NCBI GenBank assembly: GCA_027018875.1
Contig: JALUYA010000036.1
Location: 1 to 45,754, forward strand
Source: Gammaproteobacteria bacterium
GTDB taxonomy: Bacteria > Pseudomonadota > Gammaproteobacteria > JAKDMP01
Reading direction: 5' to 3'
Length of the DNA stretch: 45,754 bases
The notes beneath the pieces were generated by a model, which was not told the origin of the DNA, made no database searches, and worked only from the letters and a program-made list of their open reading frames with translations. Numbering within the stretch: position 1 is the first letter of the stretch; each line of letters starts with the position of its first letter. This document shows positions 14,990 through 28,912 of the stretch, piece by piece. The position numbers were made by a program, and so were the translations under genes.

Positions 14990-16072
14990 ATGAGCATGAA
15001 ACGGGTGCTTTTTGCTATTCACGACTGGGGGCTGGGCCATGCTTCACGCAGCCTGGTGTTGATTCGTGCCCTGGTCGAGCGCGGGAACCAGGTAACCATC
15101 CTGATGGCACCCAGCGCGGGCCTGGAACTGCTGCGCTCGGAATTGGGCGATGCCTGCGAGTTTTATCCTTATGCGGATATTCCCAAGCCGTTCAGCCGGT
15201 TTGCTCCACTGTTCTATGTCCGTATGAGCCTTTCCATGCCGGTGGTATGGACCCGGTTCAAGCTTGAACACCGTTTGACCGAGCGGCTGGTCCGCGCCCG
15301 GCACATTGACCTGGTGGTTTCCGACAGCCGCTTTGGGGTGTGGTCGCACGAGGTGCCGAGTTACTGCATTTTTCACTCTTTGCGCCAGATCATCCCGGGT
15401 CGCCTGGGGTGGATGGAACGGATGGTCGAGTGGGGCCAGCGTGGGTTGCTCAAGGGGTTTCGCAAGGTGCTGATTCCGGATGTGCGGGAAAACGGCGGTT
15501 TATCCGGTGACCTGGGGCATGATCCGGCGCTTGACTGGGGGAAGGGGCGGCTGGTTTATCTCGGGCCGTTAGCCGATGTTTACCGACCAGGTTTTGACCG
15601 AGATATCGATTATTTTTTCTCGGTTTCGGGGATCGAGCCGCAACGGGGGATTCTTGCCAAGCGGGTCATGGCCGCGCTGCCCAAGCTGTCCGGGCGGATC
15701 GTGGTGACCTTGGGGCGGCCCGAATCCGCGGGGGAGCAACGCCGGATCCACGGCGCTACCGTTTATGGGTACCTGAACCGGGAACAACAGGCGCAGATTC
15801 TGACCCGCTCGCGCATTATTATCAGCCGCTCGGGATACACAACCTTGATGGAACTGTCCGAGCTGGGTAAGCAGGCCCTGTTCATTCCCACCCCGGCGCA
15901 AAGCGAACAGGAGTACCTGGCTCGTTTTCATCGCCAGCAGGGTCATGTGTGGAGCACGACGCAGAGAGCGTTGGACATTCCTCGCGACCTCCAGCGAGCA
16001 GAACAGGCGCGGGGCTTGCCGAAAATATCGAGTGCTGAATCAGTGCGGCATTTCCTCGAGATCGTCGGGTGA
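14990..16072 (+). CDS. GT-B-fold glycosyltransferase (MurG/GT28-like)
   Basis: A 360-residue protein with the two-lobe GT-B plan. The N-terminal lobe begins RVLFAIHDWGLGHASRSL (about residues 4-21), the Gly-rich donor-lobe entry typical of GT28-like and UPF0104-neighbour glycosyltransferases. The C-terminal lobe contains RIVVTLGRPES and YGYLNREQQAQILTRSRIII. These are followed by SRSGYTTLMELSELGKQALFIPTP and SEQEYLA, which form the nucleotide-sugar site that in MurG reads GxxTxxE. No signal peptide or helix anchor is visible. It is the only plus-strand gene here and ends inside the 3' end of the convergent flippase-like gene (33-bp overlap). Acceptor and sugar are unknown; a lipid acceptor is plausible from the neighbours. 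Confidence 0.82.
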   Translation: MSMKRVLFAIHDWGLGHASRSLVLIRALVERGNQVTILMAPSAGLELLRSELGDACEFYPYADIPKPFSRFAPLFYVRMSLSMPVVWTRFKLEHRLTERLVRARHIDLVVSDSRFGVWSHEVPSYCIFHSLRQIIPGRLGWMERMVEWGQRGLLKGFRKVLIPDVRENGGLSGDLGHDPALDWGKGRLVYLGPLADVYRPGFDRDIDYFFSVSGIEPQRGILAKRVMAALPKLSGRIVVTLGRPESAGEQRRIHGATVYGYLNREQQAQILTRSRIIISRSGYTTLMELSELGKQALFIPTPAQSEQEYLARFHRQQGHVWSTTQRALDIPRDLQRAEQARGLPKISSAESVRHFLEIVG

Positions 16073-17065
16073 GGTTTCTGTGGGGGTGCCGGGTTTGTCC
16101 CGGGAGCGCATGGAGCGCCACAGCAGGGCCACGATAGGCAAATTAAGCAGCCACATCGCCCCCGTCCATACCAGCCGGAAACCCAGCATCAGGGTCAGAC
16201 CGTCGGTAAAATTGATTCCCCAGGCTTGGGCCGCGGTCATGCCGAGGATCTCCATCGTCCCGATCTGGCTGATCAGCCCGCCGAACAGCAGGACCACCGC
16301 CAAGGAAAAGGCATAGATGCTGGCCGCGGCCAGGTAGCCGAGATGGCTTACCCCGATGCTGTTACCTACCGCCTGAAAGGCGAAGGCGAGGGCGCCGAGG
16401 TAGAGCGCCGCGAGTACCATGTTGATTCCCAGCGCGCGCGCATTCGATAGTTGGCGCAACCCCCGGAGCAGGCCGATGGATTCGATTAGGGTGCGATGAA
16501 CCCAAGGCTGGTTGAGCTTGTGGGCGAGGCGCACCGCCAAGTGCTCAAACCGGAGTACGCCAAAGATCAATAAACCCAATCCGAGCAGAAATACCAGAGC
16601 GATCGGGCGCAATTCGGGCCAGCGCGGGATGCCGACTGTCACCAGGAATAACAATATGACCGCGGTTTCAGTCAGCAGCATGACCACGGTCGCGGCGGAG
16701 CTGCGCCCAAAATGCGTATCGCCCGTGACACTGAGCACCCAATTTTGGGAAAAAATCCCGAACGGGAGAGTGACTGCCAGTTCTCCGACCGAAAAAGCGA
16801 GTAAAAAGCGTTTCCAGTCGGGGCGTACGCCCAGGTTGGCGAGCAGGAGATGCAATTGCCAGGCCTTGAGTACAAGGTAGGAGATGACCATGGCCAGCGC
16901 GAATATCATGACCCAGATCGGCATGGACTGTACCCGGGAGAGAACCTGGGCGAGATCGCCGAGCTTGAATGCCAGGGTGAGAAGTGCCGCGGTCAATATC
17001 AGTGGCAGGAGTACGGCGGGTTGCAGCAGTTTGTGCAGATGCCGCAGTGGGTTGCGGGAATTCAT
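16040..17065 (-). CDS. UPF0104 / lysylphosphatidylglycerol-synthase TM-domain (flippase-like) protein
   Basis: An integral membrane protein of 341 residues with about eight hydrophobic helices. It resembles the AglD/MprF N-terminal flippase-like family, to which HpnL (hopanoid-associated) also belongs. Visible features are KAWQLHLLLANLGV with a conserved basic/aromatic pair, FSVGELAVTLPFGIFSQNW (about 90-110), and a late AASIYAFSLAVVLLFGGLISQIG near 235-257. The ATG overlaps the upstream acyltransferase stop (ATGA at 17062-17065), so it is translated as the last gene of a three-gene operon. A role in moving the lipid product of this operon across the inner membrane is inference. The family link to HpnL is by type, not demonstrated orthology. 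Confidence 0.82.
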   Translation of the reverse strand: MNSRNPLRHLHKLLQPAVLLPLILTAALLTLAFKLGDLAQVLSRVQSMPIWVMIFALAMVISYLVLKAWQLHLLLANLGVRPDWKRFLLAFSVGELAVTLPFGIFSQNWVLSVTGDTHFGRSSAATVVMLLTETAVILLFLVTVGIPRWPELRPIALVFLLGLGLLIFGVLRFEHLAVRLAHKLNQPWVHRTLIESIGLLRGLRQLSNARALGINMVLAALYLGALAFAFQAVGNSIGVSHLGYLAAASIYAFSLAVVLLFGGLISQIGTMEILGMTAAQAWGINFTDGLTLMLGFRLVWTGAMWLLNLPIVALLWRSMRSRDKPGTPTETSPDDLEEMPH

Positions 17066-18354
17066 GGATCGAGTGCCGCCGCAAGCCCCGGCTCAAGATC
17101 GGTGATGTCGCTCAGCGCATTATCCAGATAGGTCACGGTTGCCGCCGGCCTGCGCCACCCCGGCAGGGTAGCGACAGGGTAGCGATTGATCCAGGCGGAG
17201 CCATCGGGTTCGATTAAACCATGGCGGGCGAGCCAGGCCAGGCGGGAGCCGGTCAGTTTGGCCTGTGGGGCCCGGTTTAGGAGCGGGTCGAGGGTTAGCC
17301 TGGTTGTCCGGATTACCCGGGTAGCCCGTTCGATCCAGGAGCGGAACTCCACCGTGGTAAAGCGCCGGGGACCCGCCCGGAGAAAACGGCTGATCAGGTG
17401 GCTGGGCGTGATGGGGTGAAGTTTTAGAATGGCCGTCTTCAGCATGGAGTCGAATGCTGCGCGGGTAGCGGGATAGGGGGGATTTTTCACGGTTCCAATT
17501 CTCACCACGATGCGCAGGCGCCCCGGACCCAGGGGATCATAACCGAGTGCCAGGGGCAAGAGGTTCGGCGGGTGAGCGGTAATTTGGCAGATTTGCCAGG
17601 CGCCGGCACGGATACGCCGGAAATAACCCTCTTCGGATATGGTGCCCTCCGGGGCCAGAAAAACAATCCGGCCGGCATCGAGCAGGTGGGCGAAGTCTTT
17701 TAACTGGGCGGCCGTTTGGGAGCGGAAAACAGGGGATATTTTCCTGATTGTCGAACGATTCAAGCGGCGTAATCCCCAGAAGTTGCGCCCGATCTCCCCC
17801 AGGCAATGGGGGTCGAGCTGCTGTAGTTTGACCGGCATGGAGCCGAGGCAATCAAGAATTTCCCGGGTGCCGCGGGCACTGAACAGGTTCCCGGGGTTGG
17901 TGTCGGGGGGAAGCGTCTCGAGCAGCAGGCGCAGGGTTTCGTCGGTGGTGAATTCACGCACCCGCCGCAGCGGCCGGGCGCGTGTAATCCGCAGCAGCCA
18001 CCCCAGGGGGATGCTCCCCAGCCAGGAAGCCAGAAGGCGGTTCCAGCCCAAATCGAGCAGACGGTTGCGCAAAAATTCGGGATGAAAAATATCTTCCCGG
18101 GTGGCATAGAAAGGTAGCGGCCAGCGGATATGCAGCCCTTCGCGGCGGCAGAGTACGGTCGTTAAAATGGGTATATCCGCATCACGTTGATGGTTCGAGA
18201 CGACCAGTGTCCCCGGCTCCAGCCGATAGTCGGGCGGGAGGATCTCTTCCTTGTTATACAGAACGCGCACCGTGAAATCGAAGCCACACTCGACCAGCCA
18301 GGTCAGGCGGGGATGCGGGTCGAGTGTGGCATCGGGGAGCCAGGAAAAACTCAT
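17062..18354 (-). CDS. PlsC-type lipid acyltransferase-like protein
   Basis: A 430-residue protein with the lysophosphatidate-acyltransferase catalytic pair. SNHQRDADIP (about residues 52-61) corresponds to the NHxxxxD box, and IVFLAPEGTISEEG (about 231-244) to the xPEGT acceptor box. A C-terminal extension of about 150 residues has basic segments and no clear domain. The open frame continues upstream to 18657, but that part is low-complexity and overlaps hpnB; ATG 18354 (MSFSWLPD) leaves 67 bp to the hpnB stop. No signal peptide is seen. It lies between an HpnB-like glycosyltransferase and a flippase-like protein, implying lipid acylation in the same pathway. The substrate is unknown. Confidence 0.8.
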   Translation of the reverse strand: MSFSWLPDATLDPHPRLTWLVECGFDFTVRVLYNKEEILPPDYRLEPGTLVVSNHQRDADIPILTTVLCRREGLHIRWPLPFYATREDIFHPEFLRNRLLDLGWNRLLASWLGSIPLGWLLRITRARPLRRVREFTTDETLRLLLETLPPDTNPGNLFSARGTREILDCLGSMPVKLQQLDPHCLGEIGRNFWGLRRLNRSTIRKISPVFRSQTAAQLKDFAHLLDAGRIVFLAPEGTISEEGYFRRIRAGAWQICQITAHPPNLLPLALGYDPLGPGRLRIVVRIGTVKNPPYPATRAAFDSMLKTAILKLHPITPSHLISRFLRAGPRRFTTVEFRSWIERATRVIRTTRLTLDPLLNRAPQAKLTGSRLAWLARHGLIEPDGSAWINRYPVATLPGWRRPAATVTYLDNALSDITDLEPGLAAALDP

Positions 18355-18421
18355 TGTAAGGTTGCTTGGCGCATTCGCCCCGCACCCCGCAGCGGATTTT
18401 TCTGCTTCGCCATGAGTGCTC

Positions 18422-19534
18422 TTAGTCCTCTTCGCGGCGGTAATATCGGCCTTTCCAACTTGATCGGGTCCCACTCCAGGCCCGCAGGGCCGAATACCAG
18501 GTGAATACAAGATAGATGCTGGCGACGGCCGGCAGCAGGCCGGCGCCAAGTATCCGGCGATGATAATAGCGTAGAGTCGGTAAATAGCCGAGACCCATGG
18601 CCGCGAGCGCGGCCACGCCCATCCAGCGGGTCGGCCCCTGCCAGGTGAGCGCCACAAGCGGAATCCAGAAGGCGAATAGCATCAGGAGAGTTGTGGCGAA
18701 CAACAGCAGCGCAGATTCATGGAGCTGTACATAGGCGCTTCGGGCGACCATCGAGGCAATCGCGGCAAACCCCTGTCTGCGCAGGCTGTGAGCACCCCGG
18801 GTCAGCCCCAGCCAAATCGGTTCGCCGTGGCGCTTGATTCTTGCGGCGAGGGTGCAGTCATCGATCAGGGCATCGCGCCAAGCACTAAAGCCTCCCGCCG
18901 CCGCCAGGGTTTCGCATCGGAGCAGGACGACACCGCCCGCCGCCGCGGCAATGGATCCTCGGGGACGGTTGGACAGGGCAAAGGGATAAACGAGCTTGAA
19001 GAAAAAAACGTAGGCCGGTAATAGCAGGCGGGCCCAGAAGCCTTCAAAACGGGGGTGGGCCAACACCGATACCAGGCTGTAGCCTTCTTCGGCCTTGCGT
19101 CGCAGCGCCCGGATCATTCCCGGGGCGAGGCGGATATCGGCATCGAGTAACAGTACCCAGGGGGTGGTGATCCGTGCCATGCCCTGTTCGAGGGCCCAGA
19201 GCTTGCCCGCCCAACCGGGCGGAGTCGGTGTGCCCTGGATCAGCTGAAGCCGGGAGCCCCCGATTTTTCGCGCTATTCTTGTGGTATCGTCCGTGGATTC
19301 ATCGTCGACCAATACCAGGGGGATGCCGGGAGCGTCTATGGCCAGCGCAGTGAGGGTGGCGCCTATTACCCGGGCTTCATTACGTGCCGGGATCAAGATG
19401 GTGAGATCATTGTCGGGTGCCGGCTGAGAGCCGCCCGGTTCCGGTTCCAGGTGCTCGCGACAGCGCCAGGCTTGCCAAGGGGCCAGGAGCAGGCTGGCCC
19501 ACAAGCCCAGCGCTACCAGTACGGCGTAGATCAT
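18422..19534 (-). CDS. hpnB: Hopanoid-associated family 2 glycosyltransferase HpnB
   Basis: A membrane-anchored GT-A-fold glycosyltransferase, 370 residues. One N-terminal helix precedes ILIPARNEARVIG (about 49-61). VLVDDESTDDTT, then PTPPGWAGKLWALEQGM and LLLDADIRLAPG (metal-binding DxD-like site, about 130), follow. PAYVFFFKLVYPFALSN, AAAAGGVVLLR and ALIDDCTLAARIKRHGE, then WLGLTRGAHSLR and three or four C-terminal helices, complete the HpnB pattern. HpnB proteins travel with hopanoid genes, but no reaction has been firmly assigned. It is first in the minus-strand operon with the acyltransferase and flippase-like genes, and lies 185 bp downstream of hpnH. That gap (19535-19719) contains a C9 run (19676-19684) and no gene I can support. 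Confidence 0.9.
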   Translation of the reverse strand: MIYAVLVALGLWASLLLAPWQAWRCREHLEPEPGGSQPAPDNDLTILIPARNEARVIGATLTALAIDAPGIPLVLVDDESTDDTTRIARKIGGSRLQLIQGTPTPPGWAGKLWALEQGMARITTPWVLLLDADIRLAPGMIRALRRKAEEGYSLVSVLAHPRFEGFWARLLLPAYVFFFKLVYPFALSNRPRGSIAAAAGGVVLLRCETLAAAGGFSAWRDALIDDCTLAARIKRHGEPIWLGLTRGAHSLRRQGFAAIASMVARSAYVQLHESALLLFATTLLMLFAFWIPLVALTWQGPTRWMGVAALAAMGLGYLPTLRYYHRRILGAGLLPAVASIYLVFTWYSALRAWSGTRSSWKGRYYRREED

Positions 19535-19719
19535 GATAATCCGGAAAATGGCCTAGGAACCCGTCGGGGCTGGAAACGAGCTACCGCGGTGGCACGATAG
19601 CGGTCGGAATATCTCCGATTTCCCGTTGCGCGGACTCGCCATGCACCGCAAAACCGGAAATATTTTGACTCCCTTCCCCCCCCCATACTCGCTTCGCTTT
19701 TCCAAGCCCAGGCAGGCCC

Positions 19720-20847
19720 CTAGCGGGAATGCCCCGCCTCGGCCTTTTCGGAATGGACTTCCAGCGTAATATCCGCGGGCTTGCCTTCATTGCGATGATA
19801 AAGAATCGGCAGGTCGGGGGCCATGGGTCCTTTTATCTTCGGCCCCCGTAGACTGACCCACAACGTCTTGAGCGGATGGCTGAAGGCATCGTTTGCCGCG
19901 GTGCCTTCATAGCCGCAGTGGGCCATGCAGTTGTCGCACTTGGGATTGCGCCCAACGCCGTATTTATCCCATGGCGTGGTTTCCATCATTTCCCGGAAGC
20001 TGCCGGCATGGCCTTCGTCGGCAAGCAGGTAACAGGGTTTTTGCCAGCCGAAGATATTTCGGGTTGGGTTACTCCAGGGGGTGCACTGATAGGACTGGTT
20101 GCCGCAAAGAAAGTCGAGAAACAGGCCCGAATGTGATAAGGGCCACTTGACGTTCTGCTTGTGCCGGAAGATTCCACGGAACAGTTTTTTCGATTGGTTC
20201 CGGCCTATGAATACATCCTGACGCGATGCATGCTCGTAGCTGTAGCCCGGTGAGACGGTGATTCCGTCGATTCCGAGTTCGGTGGTGACGTAATCGAAAA
20301 ATCGGGCGACCTGTTCGGGATCTTCGCCAGCGAACAGGGTGGTATTGATGTTGACTCGAAAGCCTCGAGCCTTGGCTTTCTTGATTGCCGAGGTGGCTTT
20401 TTCGAACACCCCTTCACGGTTGACGCTGGCGTCGTGACGCTGTTTGAGACCATCGAGATGAATCGAGAAGATCAGGTAGGGCGATGGCTGGAACAGGTCG
20501 AGTTTTTGCTCCAGCAGGATCGCGTTGCTGCACAAATAGACATATTTCTTGCGCGCGATAATGCCGGCGACGATCTCTCCGATCTCCTTGTGAATCAAGG
20601 GCTCGCCGCCGGGTATGGAAACCACCGGAGCCCCGCATTCATCGACGGCCCGCAGGCATTCTTCGGGGGACAAGCGTTGTCTTAGGATATTGGCCGGGTA
20701 ATCAATCTTGCCGCAACCCGGGCAGGCAAGATTGCACTGGAACAGGGGTTCGAGCATCAATACCAACGGAAAACGTTTCTCACCCTTTAGTTTTTTGCCA
20801 ATGATATAGCCGGCGATTTTCGCCTGTTGGCGGATGGGTACTGCCAT
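19720..20847 (-). CDS. hpnH: Radical SAM adenosyl-hopene synthase HpnH
   Basis: Adds a 5'-deoxyadenosyl radical to hopene, giving adenosylhopane, the first committed step to C35 extended hopanoids. The 375 residues include the radical-SAM cluster motif Cx3Cx2C as CNLACPGC (C38, C42, C45). The SAM-binding VSIPGGEPLIH (GGEP) comes next, followed by CSNAILL and IFSIHLDG. A C-terminal Cys set around CDNCMAHCGYEG (about 312-323) is typical of HpnH. ATG 20847 lies 13 bp after the ispH stop, with GAGGAGACG-type purines in front. The operon order ispH–hpnH pairs isoprenoid precursor supply with hopanoid extension. Confidence 0.96.
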   Translation of the reverse strand: MAVPIRQQAKIAGYIIGKKLKGEKRFPLVLMLEPLFQCNLACPGCGKIDYPANILRQRLSPEECLRAVDECGAPVVSIPGGEPLIHKEIGEIVAGIIARKKYVYLCSNAILLEQKLDLFQPSPYLIFSIHLDGLKQRHDASVNREGVFEKATSAIKKAKARGFRVNINTTLFAGEDPEQVARFFDYVTTELGIDGITVSPGYSYEHASRQDVFIGRNQSKKLFRGIFRHKQNVKWPLSHSGLFLDFLCGNQSYQCTPWSNPTRNIFGWQKPCYLLADEGHAGSFREMMETTPWDKYGVGRNPKCDNCMAHCGYEGTAANDAFSHPLKTLWVSLRGPKIKGPMAPDLPILYHRNEGKPADITLEVHSEKAEAGHSR

Positions 20848-20860
20848 GGTTATCGTCTCC

Positions 20861-21805
20861 TCAGGATTTTGGTGTTGCCAGGTGCGCGCGGAGTTCGTTG
20901 GGAACCCGGAAGGTAACCCGTTCGTCCGGGCCCGGAATTTCTCTTACCTGGGTGCGTCCCCAGGCGGCCAGTTGCTCGATCACGGCGGTGACCAATGCCT
21001 CCGGCGTGGAGGCCCCCGCCGTGACTCCGATGCGGTCATCGGGGCTGAACCACTGCGCTTCGAGTTCGTTGGCATCCTGCACCAGGTAGGCACGTATGGC
21101 TTCCTGTTCGCCGACCTCCCGCAGGCGATTGGAATTGGAACTGTTGCGGGCGCCGACGACGATGATCACATCGGTTTCGTGGGCAAGCTCGCGCACGGCA
21201 TTCTGCCGATTCTGGGTGGCGTAGCAGATGTCTTTGGTTTCCGGTCCGACGATCGAGGGAAAACGTTTTTTCAGAGCCCCGATAACCGCGCGGGTATCGT
21301 CGACCGACAGGGTTGTTTGGGTTACGTAGGCCACCTTCTCGGGAGTTTCCACCCGTAGGGTTTCGACCTCTTCGGGTTCCGAAATAACATGCACTGGCCC
21401 GGCGACGCGGCCACTGGTGCCGACTACCTCGGGGTGCCCGCGGTGGCCGACAATAATTAGTTCATAGCCGCGACGATGATATTTTTGGGCCTGCATGTGG
21501 ACTTTGGCTACCAGTGGACAGGTCGCATCGATGATGCGCAGGCCGCGTTTTTCGGCTTCATTCACCCGGGCATCGGAGACCCCGTGAGCGCTGAAAATAG
21601 TGACTGCACCGGCAGGGACGTCATTCAGCTCTTCGGTAAATATCGCGCCTTTTCCCCGCAGACTGTTGACCACATGCTGGTTATGGACGATCTCATGCAA
21701 GACGTAAACCGGTGGGCCGAAAACCTCCAGCGCCTGTTCGACCACATCGATTGCCCGCACGACTCCAGCACAGAAACCGCGCGGTTTGGCAAGCACTACC
21801 TCCAT
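20861..21805 (-). CDS. ispH: 4-hydroxy-3-methylbut-2-enyl diphosphate reductase
   Basis: The last MEP-pathway enzyme, producing IPP and DMAPP from HMBPP with a [4Fe-4S] cluster. In 314 residues the three cluster cysteines are at 12 (KPRGFCAGV), 96 (DATCPLV) and 194 (KDICYATQNRQ). Catalytic Glu126 lies in HRGHPEVVGT, and the substrate His/Ser-Asn motifs FSAHGV and NSSNSNRL are present. The start ATG gives the canonical N-terminus. In many gammaproteobacteria ispH sits with lspA/fkpB; here it is tied to hpnH and faces hpnA across a 136-bp divergent control region. Confidence 0.97.
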   Translation of the reverse strand: MEVVLAKPRGFCAGVVRAIDVVEQALEVFGPPVYVLHEIVHNQHVVNSLRGKGAIFTEELNDVPAGAVTIFSAHGVSDARVNEAEKRGLRIIDATCPLVAKVHMQAQKYHRRGYELIIVGHRGHPEVVGTSGRVAGPVHVISEPEEVETLRVETPEKVAYVTQTTLSVDDTRAVIGALKKRFPSIVGPETKDICYATQNRQNAVRELAHETDVIIVVGARNSSNSNRLREVGEQEAIRAYLVQDANELEAQWFSPDDRIGVTAGASTPEALVTAVIEQLAAWGRTQVREIPGPDERVTFRVPNELRAHLATPKS

Positions 21806-21941
21806 CGTGAAGTCTCCCCGAGAATAGTGTGGAACAAGCCCGAAAATTTATTCGCTTATTATATGAGTTTTTAATTGGTGTATATCATGTGAAGCCTCTG
21901 GGATACACTGCCCGTGCCTGGCCTGCACTTGGGGGAATTCG
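21806..21941. promoter_or_regulatory. Divergent control region between ispH–hpnH and hpnA–shc operons
   Basis: This AT-richer 136-bp gap is the only spacer between the two hopanoid transcription units. On the minus strand a perfect -10 hexamer TATAAT (21858-21863) has a poor -35 (GATATA, 21881-21886) at 17-bp spacing, reading to ispH. On the plus strand TACACT (21904-21909) is a weak -10 candidate for hpnA. hpnA is preceded by GGGGGA about 7 bp before its ATG. The assignment rests on composition and one strong hexamer only. Confidence 0.45.
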
Positions 21942-22985
21942 ATGCCCGAGCGTGTACTGATCACCGGGGCCACGGGATTTGTCGGCTCCGCGGTGGCGCG
22001 AGCATTCTGCGAAGCGGGCTACCGGGTTCGCGTATTGGTTCGTGAGAGTTCACCGCAAACCAATCTTGCCGGGTTGGCTGTCGAGGCCGTGTTCGGGGAT
22101 TTGACCCGGGCGGAGAGTTTCACTCCGGCGCTGGCCGGGTGCCAGGGATTGGTTCATGTGGCGGCGGATTATCGTTTCTTCGTTCCCGATCCGAAACGGA
22201 TGTACCAGGTCAATGTGACGGGTACCGAGCGCTTGTTTCGCGAAGCGGCTCGTGCCGGAGTGCGGCGCATGGTCTATACCTCGAGTGTCGCCACTCTGGG
22301 GCATCGCCGCGACGATGCCCCCGCGGATGAAACCAATATAGCCGGCGAGAAGGACATGATCGGCCATTACAAGCGTTCGAAATTGATTGCCGAAGACCGG
22401 GTCAGGCGCCTTGCCGTGGGGGAAGATCTCGATATCGTAATTGTCAATCCCTCGGCACCGGTAGGCCCGCGCGACATCAAGCCGACCCCGACCGGGCGCA
22501 TGGTTTATGAGGCGGCCCGGGGACATATGCCCGCTTATGTCGATACCGGGCTCAATATCGTGCATGTGGATGATGTCGGGCACGGGCATCGGTTGGCCTA
22601 TGAGCGCGGGCAACGTGGCGAACGCTATATTCTTGGTGGCGATAACCTGACCCTGGCCCGGATACTGGCTATTATCGCCCGGTTCAGCGCCCGGCGGGCG
22701 CCGCGGATTCGGCTTGCCCCCGCGGTGGTGGTACCCGTGGCCTGGTTGGCCGAAGGCTGGGCCAGGATGACCCACACGCAACCGTTCGTGACGCGTGATG
22801 AACTGGCGATGGCCCGTCGGCCCATGTATTTCACCTCGGCCAAGGCCGAGCGGGAACTGGGCTATACTCATCGCCCGGCCGATTTAGCCTTTGAGGATGC
22901 GCTTACCTGGGCCGCGGCGCAAGGGAGACTGGGGCGTAATTTCCGGCTACACTGTCCCCCGTCCCAGCGAGGACCGGCGGCATGA
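21942..22985 (+). CDS. hpnA: Hopanoid-associated NAD-dependent epimerase/dehydratase HpnA
   Basis: An extended SDR (sugar-epimerase-like) protein of 347 residues. It has the Rossmann motif VLITGATGFVGSAVA (about 5-19), VHVAADYRFF, TSSVATLGH, and the catalytic Tyr-x3-Lys as HYKRSK. The strongly HpnA-specific run NPSAPVGPRDIKPTPTGR is followed by MPAYVDTGLNIVHVDDVG and GERYILGGDN. HpnA proteins are encoded with hopanoid genes, but their substrate is not settled. It is the first gene of the plus-strand hopanoid operon. Its TGA overlaps the ATG of the squalene synthase gene (ATGA at 22982-22985), indicating translational coupling. Confidence 0.95.
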   Translation: MPERVLITGATGFVGSAVARAFCEAGYRVRVLVRESSPQTNLAGLAVEAVFGDLTRAESFTPALAGCQGLVHVAADYRFFVPDPKRMYQVNVTGTERLFREAARAGVRRMVYTSSVATLGHRRDDAPADETNIAGEKDMIGHYKRSKLIAEDRVRRLAVGEDLDIVIVNPSAPVGPRDIKPTPTGRMVYEAARGHMPAYVDTGLNIVHVDDVGHGHRLAYERGQRGERYILGGDNLTLARILAIIARFSARRAPRIRLAPAVVVPVAWLAEGWARMTHTQPFVTRDELAMARRPMYFTSAKAERELGYTHRPADLAFEDALTWAAAQGRLGRNFRLHCPPSQRGPAA

Positions 22986-24061
22986 GTGGCAAGACAACCT
23001 CGGATTTTTTGTTGCAGCGGGAACTTCTCGATGGAGTTTCACGCACATTCGCATTAACCATACCGGCCTTGCCCGATCGGCTCGAGCGCGTGGTCGGCAA
23101 CGCCTACCTGTTGTGCCGCATTGCCGACACCATTGAAGATGCGGCAAACCTGACTCCGGACGGGGTGCGGGTGTATTCGCAACGTTTCATCGCCGTGGTT
23201 GCCGGACGCGCGGATCCGGGGGCCTTTGCGCGCGAGTTCGCGCCACACCTTTCTCCCGCTGCCAGTGCCGAGGAGAAGCGCCTGATTATCGAGACCGAAC
23301 GGGTGCTCGGCATCACCGCAACCTTCGATACCGGGACCCACGCCGCCGTGGCCGAGTGCGTGGCGGTGATGGCGCAAGGCATGGCGGATTTTCAGTGCCG
23401 GAAAGGTATCGATGGCCTGGCCGATCTGGACGAGCATGCGCGTTACTGTTACGTGGTCGCCGGGTGTGTCGGCGAGATGCTTACCCGGTTGTTCATTGCC
23501 TATTTGCCGGAACTCGAGCCCCGGCGGGAGGAACTGATGCGCCTTTCCCTATCTTTCGGGCAGGCCTTGCAAATGACTAATATTCTCAAGGATTTCTGGG
23601 AGGATCGAAGCCATGGTGTCTGTTGGTTACCCCGGGATATTTTTCTCCAAGAGGGGCTTGATCTGGCCGAGGTTTCTCCTGGAGACCCGCGGTTCATGCT
23701 CGGTTATCGGCGTTTGATCGGATTGGCCCGGGCTCACGCCGAGCGGGCGCTGCGCTATGTTTTGCTGCTTCCCCGACGTGAGGCGGGAATCCGTAATTTT
23801 TGCCTGTGGGCCTTGTTCATGTCCCTGCTTACCCTGCGCAAGCTTCAGGCCCACCCGGGGTTTGCCGATGGGAATGAGGTTAAAATTACCCGTCGTAGTG
23901 TTCACAATACCGTGCTTTGGTGTCGTATGGCGGCGCGGGAAAATCTGCTTATCAAATCGAGTTTTGAGGTGCTTGCGAGGAGCTTGCCGTCTCCTCGGCC
24001 GGGAGATTTCGGGTCTTCCGGGCAGTTCCTGGCAAAATCCGGCCGGGTGGATCCGTTGTGA
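22982..24061 (+). CDS. sqs: Squalene synthase (trans-isoprenyl diphosphate synthase family)
   Basis: Condenses two farnesyl diphosphates head-to-head; 359 residues. The first Asp-rich motif is DTIED (in CRIADTIEDAANL, about residues 48-52), and the second is NILKDFWEDR (about 200-209), which together bind Mg-diphosphate. SRTFALTIPALP near residues 20-31 and CWLPRDIF near 213-220 are typical. Only one such gene is present and no HpnE-like amine oxidoreductase follows. This suggests the one-enzyme, NADPH-using squalene synthase type known from methanotrophs rather than the HpnC/D/E three-protein route. It is coupled to hpnA by ATGA and to shc by GTGA (24058-24061). A dehydrosqualene/phytoene product is less likely given the adjacent shc. 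Confidence 0.9.
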   Translation: MSGKTTSDFLLQRELLDGVSRTFALTIPALPDRLERVVGNAYLLCRIADTIEDAANLTPDGVRVYSQRFIAVVAGRADPGAFAREFAPHLSPAASAEEKRLIIETERVLGITATFDTGTHAAVAECVAVMAQGMADFQCRKGIDGLADLDEHARYCYVVAGCVGEMLTRLFIAYLPELEPRREELMRLSLSFGQALQMTNILKDFWEDRSHGVCWLPRDIFLQEGLDLAEVSPGDPRFMLGYRRLIGLARAHAERALRYVLLLPRREAGIRNFCLWALFMSLLTLRKLQAHPGFADGNEVKITRRSVHNTVLWCRMAARENLLIKSSFEVLARSLPSPRPGDFGSSGQFLAKSGRVDPL

Positions 24062-25968
24062 TAAGACGGCTGGAGGAACCCCCCGAGGTGCAAAACTCGA
24101 ATTCACGACTGGAGCAATCACTGGCCCGTGCGCGGCGGGGCCTTCTCGCCCGTCAACGCGAGGACGGACATTGGGGTTTCGAACTCGAAGCCGATTGCAC
24201 GATTCCGGCCGAATATATCCTCATGATGCACTACATGGACGAGATCGACATCGATCTGGAAAAGCGTTTGGCGCGTTATTTACGCTCCCGGCAGCAGGCC
24301 GAGGGCGGCTGGGCGCTCTATCCCGGTGGAGACATGGACATCTCCTGTACCGTCAAGTGCTATTACGCGCTCAAACTTGCCGGCGATAGCCCCGACAGTG
24401 AGCACATGCAACGGGCGCGGGGACAAATTCTGGCTGCCGGTGGGGCGGCCAAGGCGAATGTATTTACTCGCATCATGCTTGCCCAGTTCAAGCAGATTCC
24501 CTGGCGCGGCGTGCCCTTTATTCCGGTGGAGCTGATGCTTGCGCCGCGCTGGATGTTCATTCATATCTACAAGGTCTCCTACTGGTCACGTACCGTGATG
24601 GTGCCGTTGTTCATTCTTGTGAGTCTCAGGCGCCAGGCGCGCAACCCGACCGGAATCGGTATCGAGGAGCTTTTTGTGACGCCACCCGCGCGCGAAAGGC
24701 ACTGGTTCCCGGTGCGCTCATTCCTGAATTGGGTTTTTCTTGCCGCCGAGCGGACCGTGCGCCGCCTCGAACCCCTGATTCCCTGGGGGATGCGCTGGGT
24801 GTCGATTCGCCGGGCCGAACGCTGGATGTTGGCACGGCTTAATGGGGAAGGCGGCTTGGGGGCGATTTTCCCGGCCATGGTCAATGCCTACGAGGCTCTC
24901 GATGCCCTCGGCTATGGCCCTGGGCATCCGTGTCGACGCACGGCGAAACGAGCCCTGGAATTGCTGTTGGTCGAGCGCGGGGATATGACTTATTGCCAAC
25001 CTTGCGTGTCTCCCGTATGGGATACCGGGTTGGCCGCGCTGGCGCTGGAAGAGGCGGGCGGGGCCGCCGAGGCGGTGACCCGTGCCCTCGACTGGTTGGC
25101 ACCGAGGCAACTGTTTGATGAACCTGCGGACTGGAGGGAATATCGTCCCGGGTTGTCCGGAGGCGGCTGGGCCTTTCAGTACCGTAATGGTTATTATCCC
25201 GATCTCGACGATACGAGTGTGGTGGCCTGGGCGATGCACCGCGCCGACCCCGAAGGCTTCGGCCGGAACATTTGGCGGGCCGCCGACTGGCTTGTGGGGA
25301 TGCAGTCAAAAAATGGCGGATTTGCTTCTTTCGATGCCAACAACACGCATTACTACTTGAATGAAATCCCGTTTGCCGACCATGGCGCCCTGCTCGATCC
25401 ACCAACCGAAGATGTTACCGCCCGCTGCGTTACCCTGCTTTCCCGCCTGGGTGAGCGCTACCGGAAACCCCGGGACCGGGCGCTTGAATACCTCACCCGC
25501 ATGCAGCGGCCCGAAGGATGCTGGTGGGGCCGCTGGGGCACGAACTACATTTATGGCACCTGGTCGGTTCTGATGGCTTTGGAGGCGGCTGGAATTCCAG
25601 GTTCCGATCCCCGCATCCTCCGGGCCGTGAACTGGCTTAAATCGATTCAGAACGAAGACGGTGGCTTTGGCGAATCCAACGATACCTACCGCAGTGGCAC
25701 TTGCCCGGTCAGACCCGGAACCGCTCCGTCCACGCCCGAGCAAACCGCCTGGGCGCTACTTGCCCTGATGGCGGCGGGGGAAGCGGCAAGCGAGGCCGTA
25801 CGTTGTGGCATCGAATGGTTGCTGGCCACGCAAGGAGAAGGGGGGTTGTGGCACAGCGAGCGGTTTAATGCTCCGGGGTTTCCCCGGGTTTTCTATTTGC
25901 GGTATCACGGCTACAGCACCTATTTTCCTCTCTGGGCGGTAGCCCGGTACCGCAACCTGGTTTGCTGA
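24058..25968 (+). CDS. shc: Squalene–hopene cyclase
   Basis: Cyclises squalene to hopene/hopanol as a monotopic membrane enzyme. The 636 residues match the family. The catalytic DxDDT motif is PDLDDT at 381-386. QW-type repeats are seen as QSKNGGFASFD (about 423-433), the segment near MQRPEGCWWGRWG, and QNEDGGFGES. The ending LRYHGYSTYFPLWAVARY is characteristic of bacterial SHC. The start is a GTG overlapping the previous stop (GTGA). The next GTG at 24088 is a possible shorter start. It is third in the hpnA–sqs–shc–hpnG operon and supplies hopene to HpnH, encoded across the divergent promoter. Confidence 0.97.
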   Translation: MIRRLEEPPEVQNSNSRLEQSLARARRGLLARQREDGHWGFELEADCTIPAEYILMMHYMDEIDIDLEKRLARYLRSRQQAEGGWALYPGGDMDISCTVKCYYALKLAGDSPDSEHMQRARGQILAAGGAAKANVFTRIMLAQFKQIPWRGVPFIPVELMLAPRWMFIHIYKVSYWSRTVMVPLFILVSLRRQARNPTGIGIEELFVTPPARERHWFPVRSFLNWVFLAAERTVRRLEPLIPWGMRWVSIRRAERWMLARLNGEGGLGAIFPAMVNAYEALDALGYGPGHPCRRTAKRALELLLVERGDMTYCQPCVSPVWDTGLAALALEEAGGAAEAVTRALDWLAPRQLFDEPADWREYRPGLSGGGWAFQYRNGYYPDLDDTSVVAWAMHRADPEGFGRNIWRAADWLVGMQSKNGGFASFDANNTHYYLNEIPFADHGALLDPPTEDVTARCVTLLSRLGERYRKPRDRALEYLTRMQRPEGCWWGRWGTNYIYGTWSVLMALEAAGIPGSDPRILRAVNWLKSIQNEDGGFGESNDTYRSGTCPVRPGTAPSTPEQTAWALLALMAAGEAASEAVRCGIEWLLATQGEGGLWHSERFNAPGFPRVFYLRYHGYSTYFPLWAVARYRNLVC

Positions 25969-26639
25969 CCGGAATCGTTGCCCCGCTGGGTATGGAAGCC
26001 CGGGCGGCCCGAGCGCTGGCCCGCGGTGGCGGGCGTGTTTACCGCACCGGATACGGGGCCGAGCGCGCCCGAGCAGCGGGTGAAGCCCTAGTGGCTATGG
26101 GGGTGCACCGCATTCTGGTGTGGGGAATGGCGGGCGGGCTCAACTCGGGCCTGGCCAGCGGGGCGGTGCTGTTGCCCGCCGAGGTTCGAGATGAGGCAGG
26201 TACCGCCTGGCGGATGACCTCCCACTTTCATGCCGTGCTATTACGCGCTCTGTCCGGAGTCACACGGATTTCGACGGCGCCGCTGGTCACCACGGCTCAC
26301 CCGGTGGCAACACCCGCGGATAAGGCGGCGCTCGCCCACCGCAGTGGGGCCGCGGCGGTGGATATGGAAGCCGCCGTGGTCGCCTCCATTGCCGCCGCCG
26401 CGGGGGTGGATTGCGCGGTGTTGCGCGTGGTGGCCGATACGGCTCACGATACCCTGCCCGGTGTCGTTCTCGCCGCAAGGAGTCAACGCTTTCTTGCCGC
26501 CGAAGTCGCCCTGCGGTTGCTCTTCAGGCCCCGGGATCTGGGTTCGGTACGACGCCTGGCGCGGGCGGCGGGGGTGGCATGTGAGACGTTGACCGCATGT
26601 GCGCAGGCGCTGGCCGATACGAAGACCTTGCAGAAATGA
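25962..26639 (+). CDS. hpnG: Hopanoid-associated nucleoside phosphorylase HpnG
   Basis: A PNP/UDP-phosphorylase-fold protein of about 225 residues that removes adenine from adenosylhopane toward ribosylhopane. N-terminal TGIVAPLGMEARAARAL corresponds to the family's opening strand. WGMAGGLNSGLASGAVLLP and the ribose-binding AAVDMEAAVVA (D-M-E, about 136-141) are characteristic of this fold, and RVVADTAHD follows. The start is probably TTG 25962, overlapping the shc stop by 7 bp; the first ATG (25992) would remove the conserved opening strand. It is last in the operon. The pathway step is established for HpnG family members; the assignment here is by motif and context. Confidence 0.9.
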   Translation: MLTGIVAPLGMEARAARALARGGGRVYRTGYGAERARAAGEALVAMGVHRILVWGMAGGLNSGLASGAVLLPAEVRDEAGTAWRMTSHFHAVLLRALSGVTRISTAPLVTTAHPVATPADKAALAHRSGAAAVDMEAAVVASIAAAAGVDCAVLRVVADTAHDTLPGVVLAARSQRFLAAEVALRLLFRPRDLGSVRRLARAAGVACETLTACAQALADTKTLQK

Positions 26640-26742: not shown

Positions 26743-28110
26743 ATGAATTCGATTGCAACCATCAATCCCGCCACGGGTGAACCGATTGCCCGGTATGACT
26801 GTGCCGACGACGCCCAAATCGGCGCCACCCTCGAGCGCATGAGACGCGCCCAGCGCGAGTGGGCGGCGAGGCCGGTGGGCGAACGTCTAGAGCCGCTCAC
26901 CCGGCTGGCCAATCTGTTTTTGGCCCGGCGGGATGAACTCGCCCGGCTGATGACCCGCGAGATGGGCAAACCCATCACCCAGGCGCGTGCCGAGGTGGAG
27001 AAATGTGCCGGGGCGTTTCGGTATTATGCCGAGCAGGCCCCGGTGCTGCTTGCCGATAAGCCGGTGCAGACCAACGCCGCCTGGAGCGGGGTGGTGTATC
27101 AGCCGCTCGGGATCGTGTTTGCCATCATGCCCTGGAACTTTCCTTTCTGGCAGGCCGCCCGATTCGCCGCCCCGGCGCTGGCCGCCGGAAATGCCGGGCT
27201 GCTGAAACCGGCTCCAAGTACCACCGGTTGCGGGCTGGCCCTCGTCCGGTTGGCGCAAGAGGCGGGGATACCCCCCGGCGTATTGACGACCCTGGTGCTC
27301 GATAATGACTACGCAGCCCGGGTTATTGCCGATTCGCGCATAGCCGCTATTACGCTGACCGGCAGCGAGCGTGCCGGGCGCGCAGTGGCCCGGGTGGCGG
27401 GCGAGAATCTAAAAAAATGCGTGCTTGAGCTGGGAGGCTCCGATCCCTTTGTGGTGCTGGCCGATGCCGATTTGGAGCGGGCGGTTCAAGTTGCCGTTAG
27501 CGCCCGGTTTCAGAATACCGGTCAGAGTTGTATCGCGGCCAAGCGATTCATCATCGAGGCTCCGGTCTATGAGGAATTCGTGGCCCGGTTTGTTGCTGCC
27601 AGCAAGGCCTTGGAACTGGGCGATCCAGCGGCTGAAGCGACCGATCTCGGGCCACTCGCCCGGGATGATTTGCGCCTGACGCTTGCCCGCCAGGTGCAGT
27701 CCAGCCTCGATGCGGGAGCGCGGCTGGTAACCGGGGGGGGCATCCCCGCGAGACCGGGCTACTACTATGAGCCTACCGTGCTCGATGGAGTTCGTTCGGG
27801 AATGGCCGTAGCCACGGAAGAGGTGTTCGGCCCGGTGGCGGCCATCTTTCGGGCCACGGATCGTGCCGCCGCTCTGGCACTGGCGAACTCGACTTCCTAT
27901 GGCTTGGGCGGCAGCGTCTGGACCGCCGACCGGGAGGCGGGAGAGCGGTTCGCGCGGGGTCTTGCCTCGGGCCTCGCCTTCGTCAACGAGATGGTGCAAA
28001 GCGATCCACGGCTGCCCTTTGGCGGCATCAAGCATTCGGGGTTCGGCCGTGAGCTTGCCACCGAAGGCTTGCGCGAATTTCTCAATCTGAAAACTTTATG
28101 GATAAGTTGA
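26743..28110 (+). CDS. NAD(P)-dependent aldehyde dehydrogenase (succinate/sulfoacetaldehyde-semialdehyde type)
   Basis: An ALDH-superfamily enzyme of 455 residues. PWNFPFWQAARF (about 127-138) and LKPAPSTTG form the cofactor region. ITLTGSERAGRAVA precedes LELGGSDPFVV, which contains the general-base Glu. The catalytic Cys is in FQNTGQSCIAAKRF (about residue 262), and EEVFGPVAAIF and PFGGIKHSGFGREL complete the family. By sequence style it resembles short succinate-semialdehyde dehydrogenases. AAGGAGACAG precedes ATG 26743. The TauE/SafE exporter gene follows after 4 bp, a pairing reminiscent of safD–safE, so sulfoacetaldehyde is an alternative substrate. A G8 run lies at 27733-27740. Confidence 0.88.
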   Translation: MNSIATINPATGEPIARYDCADDAQIGATLERMRRAQREWAARPVGERLEPLTRLANLFLARRDELARLMTREMGKPITQARAEVEKCAGAFRYYAEQAPVLLADKPVQTNAAWSGVVYQPLGIVFAIMPWNFPFWQAARFAAPALAAGNAGLLKPAPSTTGCGLALVRLAQEAGIPPGVLTTLVLDNDYAARVIADSRIAAITLTGSERAGRAVARVAGENLKKCVLELGGSDPFVVLADADLERAVQVAVSARFQNTGQSCIAAKRFIIEAPVYEEFVARFVAASKALELGDPAAEATDLGPLARDDLRLTLARQVQSSLDAGARLVTGGGIPARPGYYYEPTVLDGVRSGMAVATEEVFGPVAAIFRATDRAAALALANSTSYGLGGSVWTADREAGERFARGLASGLAFVNEMVQSDPRLPFGGIKHSGFGRELATEGLREFLNLKTLWIS

Positions 28111-28114
28111 GTCC

Positions 28115-28912
28115 ATGGTGATTGAACTCGGGCTATTTCTGGCCCTGGGTATGGTGGTGGGACTGGTCGCGCCTGCCGCCGGTATCGGCGGTGGCGTGCT
28201 GATGGTACCCGCCTTTCTGGTTATTTTTCCGGCCTTCGGGATCGCTCCGGACATGGCCGCGCATATGGCTGTTGGTTCTTCGGTGGGAGCGGCGGCGCTG
28301 ATGAGTCTTAGTGCAGTCCATGCCCATGCGCGCAATGGTGCCGTGGATTGGCGCGTTTTCAAGGCCCTGGCCCCGGGGCTGATTGTCGGGGCCGTCATCG
28401 GCGGGGTAATCGCTCACGGGTTGCCGGATGATATTTTGCGCCGGGTCTTTGGTGCCCTGATGCTGCTATTGGCAATTTACCTGGTTTGGGGCCGCCAACC
28501 CCATGAGTGGCGGCACTCGGCAGGGCCCTCACCGCGAACCGCTTTATCCGCCGGGTTCGTTATTGGCGAGGTCGGCTCCATGGTAGGCGTGGGAGGGGGT
28601 TCGATGATCGTGCCCTTCCTGCTGTTCCAAGGCCTGCATTCCCAACGCGTAGCGGGTACTTCCAGTGCCGGGGTGCTGGTTGCGGCCTTGACGGCCGCGA
28701 TCACCTATATCCTGGTTGGAAGAGAATCTCCCGGGCTGCCGGCCTATTCGCTCGGGTATCTTTATGGGCCCGCGGTGACGGCTACCGCGATTACCGCAAT
28801 GTTGTTGGCGCCACTAGGAGCAAAAATCGCCCAGCATCTGCCGCGTAAGCGGTTTCAACGCCTGTTTGCGATATTGTTACTGATTATTGCGGTGCGGATG
28901 CTGGTGTTTTGA
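28115..28912 (+). CDS. TSUP (TauE/SafE) family anion exporter
   Basis: A polytopic membrane protein of 265 residues with two homologous halves. Each half is marked by a Gly-rich re-entrant motif: PAAGIGGGVLMVPA near residues 19-32 and VGGGSMIVPFLLFQG near 155-169. The motif SVGAAALMSLSAV and the paired SSAGVLVAALTAAI are the corresponding helix starts. TSUP members move sulfite, sulfoacetate or other organosulfur anions, or related organic anions. It starts 4 bp after the aldehyde dehydrogenase stop and is almost certainly in the same operon. The hairpin at 28943-28965 lies just downstream. Confidence 0.9.
   Translation: MVIELGLFLALGMVVGLVAPAAGIGGGVLMVPAFLVIFPAFGIAPDMAAHMAVGSSVGAAALMSLSAVHAHARNGAVDWRVFKALAPGLIVGAVIGGVIAHGLPDDILRRVFGALMLLLAIYLVWGRQPHEWRHSAGPSPRTALSAGFVIGEVGSMVGVGGGSMIVPFLLFQGLHSQRVAGTSSAGVLVAALTAAITYILVGRESPGLPAYSLGYLYGPAVTATAITAMLLAPLGAKIAQHLPRKRFQRLFAILLLIIAVRMLVF

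Follow-up and report, generated by a model that had tools for sequence, protein, structure and literature searches.

What do the genes that follow hpnH and hpnB in a gammaproteobacterial hopanoid locus do? The locus lies on contig JALUYA010000036.1 of a Gammaproteobacteria bacterium (assembly GCA_027018875.1), and the window is the whole stretch of 45,754 nucleotides that was analysed. Here hpnH, hpnB, the gene of a PlsC-superfamily acyltransferase (AT) and that of a flippase-like membrane protein (FLIP) are consecutive on the minus strand, and the gene of a GT-B glycosyltransferase (GTB) on the plus strand converges with FLIP. On balance, we favour the view that AT, FLIP and GTB form a cassette that decorates hopanoids, lipids of bacteria that resemble cholesterol.

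The genes are closely packed. HpnB (18422-19534, minus strand, 370 aa) starts 185 bp beyond hpnH and is followed after 67 bp by AT (17062-18354, minus strand, 430 aa), which shares a 4-base ATGA overlap with FLIP (16040-17065, minus strand, 341 aa). The 3' ends of FLIP and GTB (14990-16072, plus strand, 360 aa) overlap by 33 bp. The AT open reading frame was listed as 17062-18657, beginning with TTG; when it is begun at the ATG at 18354, the protein has 430 residues and the gap to hpnB is 67 bp. The original prediction, made from the sequence alone, described this minus-strand set, its spacing and the convergent GT-B gene, and its coordinates proved exact. The GC content of the cassette resembles that of the surrounding DNA. 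A scan of the locus for promoters and terminators gave no signal clearly above shuffled sequence, which neither backs nor breaks an operon.

We determined how far these genes belong together by searching 369 genomes of the class Gammaproteobacteria with profiles of the three proteins. The AT profile (four rows) matched 73 genomes at E ≤1e-3, eight of them at full length (186 bits or more); the other 65, with a best match of 37.1 bits or less that covered the PlsC motif only, were left out. The FLIP profile (seven rows, E 1e-10) matched seven genomes and the GTB profile (seven rows, E 1e-20) eight, seven of these above 600 bits; the remaining match, at 212 bits in genome G334, was treated as another subfamily. 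The seven FLIP genomes are the same as the seven close-GTB genomes, and all are among the eight AT genomes. In the eighth, G001, the contig ends inside AT, directly after hpnB. Since the profiles were built from the sample's own cassette genomes, the informative part of this agreement is the absence of any comparable score elsewhere in the sample. Among 299 sampled genomes of the phylum, GTB was found only in the window genome.

AT followed by FLIP with a convergent GTB occurs in six genomes (the window and loci L090, L114, L115, L116 and L117). G357 has AT and FLIP without an adjoining GTB at L111, and its GTB instead follows hpnB at L074. The ATGA overlap of AT and FLIP recurs, being present in the window, L090, L111 and L117. 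Families f156 and f122 come out as a pair in the trees of AT and GTB, a grouping on which the FLIP tree is undecided. The conserved unit is AT-FLIP-GTB; hpnB is a frequent neighbour, and two of the four cassette families have it outside the unit. The original prediction had drawn the unit as hpnB, AT and FLIP facing GTB: its AT-FLIP core is conserved, but GTB belongs inside the unit and hpnB only sometimes does. Genome G236 has another close copy of GTB (564 bits) at L135:6050-7447, away from AT and FLIP.

Among the genomes searched, the cassette is confined to those that carry hpnB. Matches of GT2 proteins to the HpnB model TIGR03469 were found in 329 genomes, of which 42 exceeded 300 bits and were counted as hpnB-positive, including G279, where the match is split in two pieces; the next genome scored 199.2 bits, and the 287 below 300 bits were left out. 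All eight genomes with full-length AT are hpnB-positive, against 42 of 369 overall (hypergeometric 1.5e-8 by genome). The co-occurrence check that the original prediction had proposed for the acyltransferase thus spoke for that prediction. By family, the four cassette families are all hpnB-positive, among 22 of 182 (hypergeometric 1.7e-4), a count that assumes that the family labels run to f182. Both tests treat genomes as independent, and relatedness makes the values optimistic. Squalene-hopene cyclase (SHC) was present within the fetched loci of all eight AT genomes. The same association is seen within family f151, where two of five genomes are SHC-positive and carry cassette genes, and the other three are SHC-negative and lack AT. 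FLIP and GTB are absent from G262, the sole one of these three examined for the two proteins.

This pattern bears on the sharpest rival reading, which follows from a precedent in Methylobacterium extorquens AM1. There the neighbouring genes META1p3663-META1p3664, for a glycosyltransferase and a lysophospholipid-type acyltransferase, complete a squalene-derived C30 lipid, as described in the available part of PMC10448405. The evidence given there is genetic: deletions of both genes, with complementation for the glycosyltransferase, establish glycosylation and then PlsC-type acylation on a C30 carotenoid (PMC10448405). The cassette could likewise make an acyl-glycosyl C30 carotenoid from squalene rather than a hopanoid, and its place near hopanoid genes would then reflect the squalene that both use. 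Two features fit this reading: HpnB also has some similarity to CruG, a carotenoid transferase (86.8 bits), and in the window hpnG is followed by a gene for an aldehyde dehydrogenase. Yet the cassette tracks SHC and not squalene, as seen in the three SHC-negative f151 genomes without AT. The accessible text of PMC9062700 reports hpnCDE in all Acidihalobacter genomes and hpnFHG only in A. ferrooxydans; we infer that the f151 genomes are Acidihalobacter. No CrtN-like desaturase turned up in a crude motif scan of the window and 51 fetched loci, which is weak evidence, and PF03706 and Mla genes suit a membrane lipid better than a pigment. The M. extorquens AM1 pair also differs from the cassette in that its substrate is a carotenoid and that the part of PMC10448405 available mentions no flippase gene, and the two were likened by description and not by sequence. 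We consider a carotenoid product improbable.

The position of the cassette points in the same direction as its distribution, since in three of the four families it lies in or beside hopanoid loci. In family f1 (the window and G001), it comes after hpnH-hpnB. In family f151 (G151 and G357; L090 and L111), AT and FLIP end a codirectional run of SHC-hpnG-hpnA-MlaE-MlaF-MlaD-PF03886 lipoprotein-AT-FLIP, and hpnB and GTB are in tandem (L074 and L090, 134 and 58 bp apart). In family f122 (G122 and G236; L116 and L117), the cassette is found between chorismate synthase and SHC, and at L116 hpnG, ispH, hpnH and hpnA come after SHC. This linkage backs the earlier suggestion that the genes might build a modified hopanoid.

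The Mla-type set of both f151 genomes lies between hpnA and AT (L090:2796-6282 and L111:10076-12936). It comprises the MlaE permease, the MlaF ATPase, an MlaD/MCE protein and the PF03886 auxiliary lipoprotein, and is likely a hopanoid export system. Elsewhere, Mla genes follow hpnB itself, with MlaC downstream in 23 of the 42 hpnB loci and MlaA in 24, whereas AT and FLIP follow hpnB in the window. In the six genomes whose cassette belongs to or adjoins the hopanoid locus, neither MlaC nor MlaA was found downstream of hpnB, although they may lie elsewhere and several contigs are short.

G122 and G236 have a congener, genome G332, that shares their neighbourhood, with SHC adjoining the gene on the chorismate synthase side and no cassette between them. 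No close AT or GTB was found elsewhere in G332, which is 82% complete and has the locus on one contig. The simple reading of this difference is that the cassette was gained or lost as a block. It also bears on whether AT, FLIP and GTB are merely chance neighbours without a common function. Convergent genes may have separate functions and hpnB is unlinked in two families, but all three genes occur in the same seven genomes, six of these share the arrangement, and at one locus the whole cassette is either there or missing. Together these observations already contradict chance, which we find barely credible.

The predicted families of the proteins were largely borne out by profile searches. TIGR03469 is the best family of the window's HpnB (343.9 bits), the next-best reaching only 86.8 bits, and the gene adjoins hpnH, as in 27 of the 42 hpnB loci, the window included, where hpnH is upstream. 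Its LLLDAD and DDCTL motifs, which we take to be GT2 motifs, are intact. The score falls below the curated cut-off of 379.25 bits, as it does for 17 of the 42 genomes of the class with a match above 300 bits. AT matches PF01553 (38.6 bits, cut-off 23). This domain is matched by all 13 aligned AT relatives, and the HX4D and PEG motifs are kept in all 13. The best match of the AT profile in the PDB was PlsC (5kym, E 8.2e-6); a single-sequence search of the PDB gave two matches only (E 0.3), which we took as chance. Both the HpnB-like and the PlsC-type assignments of the original prediction thus stood.

GTB matches PF04101 (Glyco_tran_28_C; 36.4 bits, cut-off 22). Like MurG, it belongs to the GT-B family and has the C-terminal sugar-nucleotide region, and MurG was the best match of its profile in the PDB (1f0k, E 1.6e-4). 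However, it reaches only 32.7 bits against the MurG model TIGR01133 (cut-off 250.25), and its identity as MurG was rejected. It also falls short of TIGR00661, the model of MJ1255/VC2487 glycosyltransferases (28.5 bits, cut-off 195.9), and all seven family members match both models weakly, far under the cut-offs. Structure models of AT and GTB were of low quality (mean pLDDT 50.0 and 44.2) and too poor for use. A distant GTB relative (about 200 bits) is fused to a general-type GT2 domain in G334, G357 and G151, in frames of 617 to 648 aa (L136:6240-8138, L137:5887-7719 and L138:4042-5904). As a Rosetta-stone link to HpnB this fusion is a hint only, as its GT2 half reaches only 47 to 57 bits with the profile of HpnB.

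FLIP belongs to PF03706 (LPG_synthase_TM) over its full length (51.5 bits, cut-off 33.4) and has no other Pfam domain. The cut-off is passed by six of the seven FLIP proteins, the one at L117 lying just below at 33.3 bits. The flippase domain of MprF, which has a flippase role, belongs to the same family. Unlike MprF, FLIP is a protein of 341 aa with PF03706 as its one Pfam domain, and it had no match among solved structures. HpnL proteins are also PF03706 members. The label UPF0104/HpnL-like of the original prediction is nevertheless unsupported in that form: FLIP is not HpnL itself, since neither the window protein nor any other of the seven FLIP proteins matches the HpnL model TIGR03476.

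We compared the occurrence of FLIP and HpnL by searching TIGR03476 in 45 genomes, namely the 42 hpnB genomes and the three SHC-negative f151 genomes, and found a match in 28. The six genomes whose cassette lies within or next to a hopanoid locus, the window genome among them, gave no HpnL match, against 26 with one among the 34 hpnB genomes that lack the cassette (Fisher 7.8e-4). When all cassette genomes are counted (2/8 with HpnL), the value is 0.010; the split into six and two was drawn after the data were seen. The exchange is visible within a single genus, where G332 has HpnL but not the cassette and the reverse holds for G122 and G236. As HpnL is missing alongside a locus-borne cassette and mostly present without one, FLIP may stand in for it. 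This occurrence pattern suggests, short of proof, that FLIP can fill the place of HpnL.

Several observations weigh against a role of the cassette in hopanoid decoration and against the exchange of FLIP for HpnL. Both f156 genomes (G156 and G266) have the cassette in a common neighbourhood that is apart from the hopanoid genes, and they carry HpnL as well, so replacement of HpnL is not general. The FLIP and HpnL profiles also fail to align to each other. G332 has SHC and hpnB in spite of having no cassette, so the cassette is dispensable for hopanoids. Only four families carry the cassette, and so there were few independent events. Finally, AT copies lie away from FLIP in four genomes (the window genome G000, G001, G151 and G357, the last with two), so hopanoids need not be what the AT family acts on. 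Of these five unlinked copies, four make up a single clade in the AT tree, separate from the ATs of the cassettes, and the one at L112 clusters with the cassette AT of f151. The unlinked copies, too, are confined to hpnB genomes of the sample. Those at L002 (G000:C37) and L004 (G001:C184) are 32-33% identical to the window AT, and the one at L002 adjoins a gene that reads, by eye, like the ATP synthase a subunit.

The displaced f156 cassettes and unlinked AT copies, together with PlsC as the nearest solved structure of AT, would fit a second rival. Here the three proteins work on a glycerolipid or glycolipid that is unrelated but needed in the same habitats, and the linkage reflects shared regulation under membrane stress. 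This is harder to reconcile with the absence of full-length AT, FLIP and close GTB from every genome of the 369 outside the hpnB set, and with L090 and L111, where AT and FLIP continue the codirectional run from SHC. We regard this rival as unlikely.

If the cassette decorates hopanoids, the steps might be as follows. GTB would move a sugar from a nucleotide-sugar to bacteriohopanepolyol at the cytoplasmic face, with HpnB possibly acting earlier or alongside. AT would then add a fatty acyl chain to that sugar or to the hopanoid side chain. FLIP would move the finished lipid into the outer leaflet of the inner membrane, a task that HpnL may have in other genomes, and a transporter of the Mla type, encoded in the same gene run in one family, could pass it on towards the outer membrane. 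Acyl-glycosyl hopanoids, which would be the outcome, are a lipid class described chemically, as in N-acylglucosaminyl-bacteriohopanetetrol and N-acylaminotriol. We infer the substrate, the sugar and the acyl site. Acylated and glycosylated hopanoids are known to exist, according to the part of PMC8537080 available.

Bacteriohopanepolyol glycosylation has a known counterpart in HpnI-HpnK-HpnJ of the bacteriohopanetetrol cyclitol ether pathway, as outlined in the accessible portion of PMC12583986. Those proteins differ from the cassette, being a glycosyltransferase, a deacetylase and a radical SAM enzyme, with no acyltransferase or GT-B protein. The same 2025 survey, in that portion, gives the functions of hpnA, hpnB and hpnL as not established (PMC12583986). 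In titles and abstract openings of the open-licence literature, we found no published gene set like AT-FLIP-GTB, and our searches of open-licence papers, as far as their texts were available, returned no gene for hopanoid acylation. A bolder version of the proposal is that AT-FLIP-GTB is a mobile, self-contained acyl-glycosyl-hopanoid pathway that displaces hpnL. In that case two distant branches of PF03706 would each supply a hopanoid flippase, FLIP and HpnL, able to replace one another, which would give HpnL its function, and HpnB would add the first sugar. We hold this version to be conceivable but doubtful.

The genes around the cassette confirm the hopanoid setting. On the minus strand, upstream of hpnB, are the adenosyl-hopene transferase HpnH (19720-20847; TIGR03470 535.1 bits, cut-off 225.05) and IspH (20861-21805; TIGR00216 335.2 bits, cut-off 187.85). 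The plus strand carries HpnA (21942-22985; TIGR03466 457.2 bits, cut-off 367.65), a squalene-synthase-like protein (22982-24061; PF00494 163.7 bits), SHC (24058-25968; TIGR01507 783.3 bits, cut-off 431.1) and an HpnG-like phosphorylase (25962-26639; TIGR03468 131.5 bits, below the cut-off of 187.1). SHC, hpnH and hpnA, the genes by which we recognised a hopanoid locus, all lie above their cut-offs within 19720-25968. The squalene synthase is nearer the single-enzyme type (TIGR01559 91.4 bits, HpnD 47.5 and HpnC 30.1, all below the cut-offs). Downstream of hpnG, at 26743-28912, are an aldehyde dehydrogenase and a 265-aa protein without an NCBIfam match, relatives of which are also found near hpnG in G001 (L005). 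A run of C residues occupies 19670-19690, inside the hpnH-hpnB gap.

This neighbourhood speaks to one further rival, in which AT and GTB modify an envelope glycan, either lipid A or another, that carries the hopanoid as a covalent substituent, like the hopanoid-lipid A of Bradyrhizobium. Such conjugates exist, as stated in the part of PMC5613085 available, but no lipid A genes were present among the annotated genes around the cassette. We judge this rival very unlikely.

For hopanoid decoration, the cassette offers three candidate genes and a natural pair with and without them inside one genus. It also links an HpnL-like role to a defined gene swap. If the proposal is true, these genes would be tied to a class of hopanoids, lipids that serve as biomarkers and are discussed for acid and salt tolerance.

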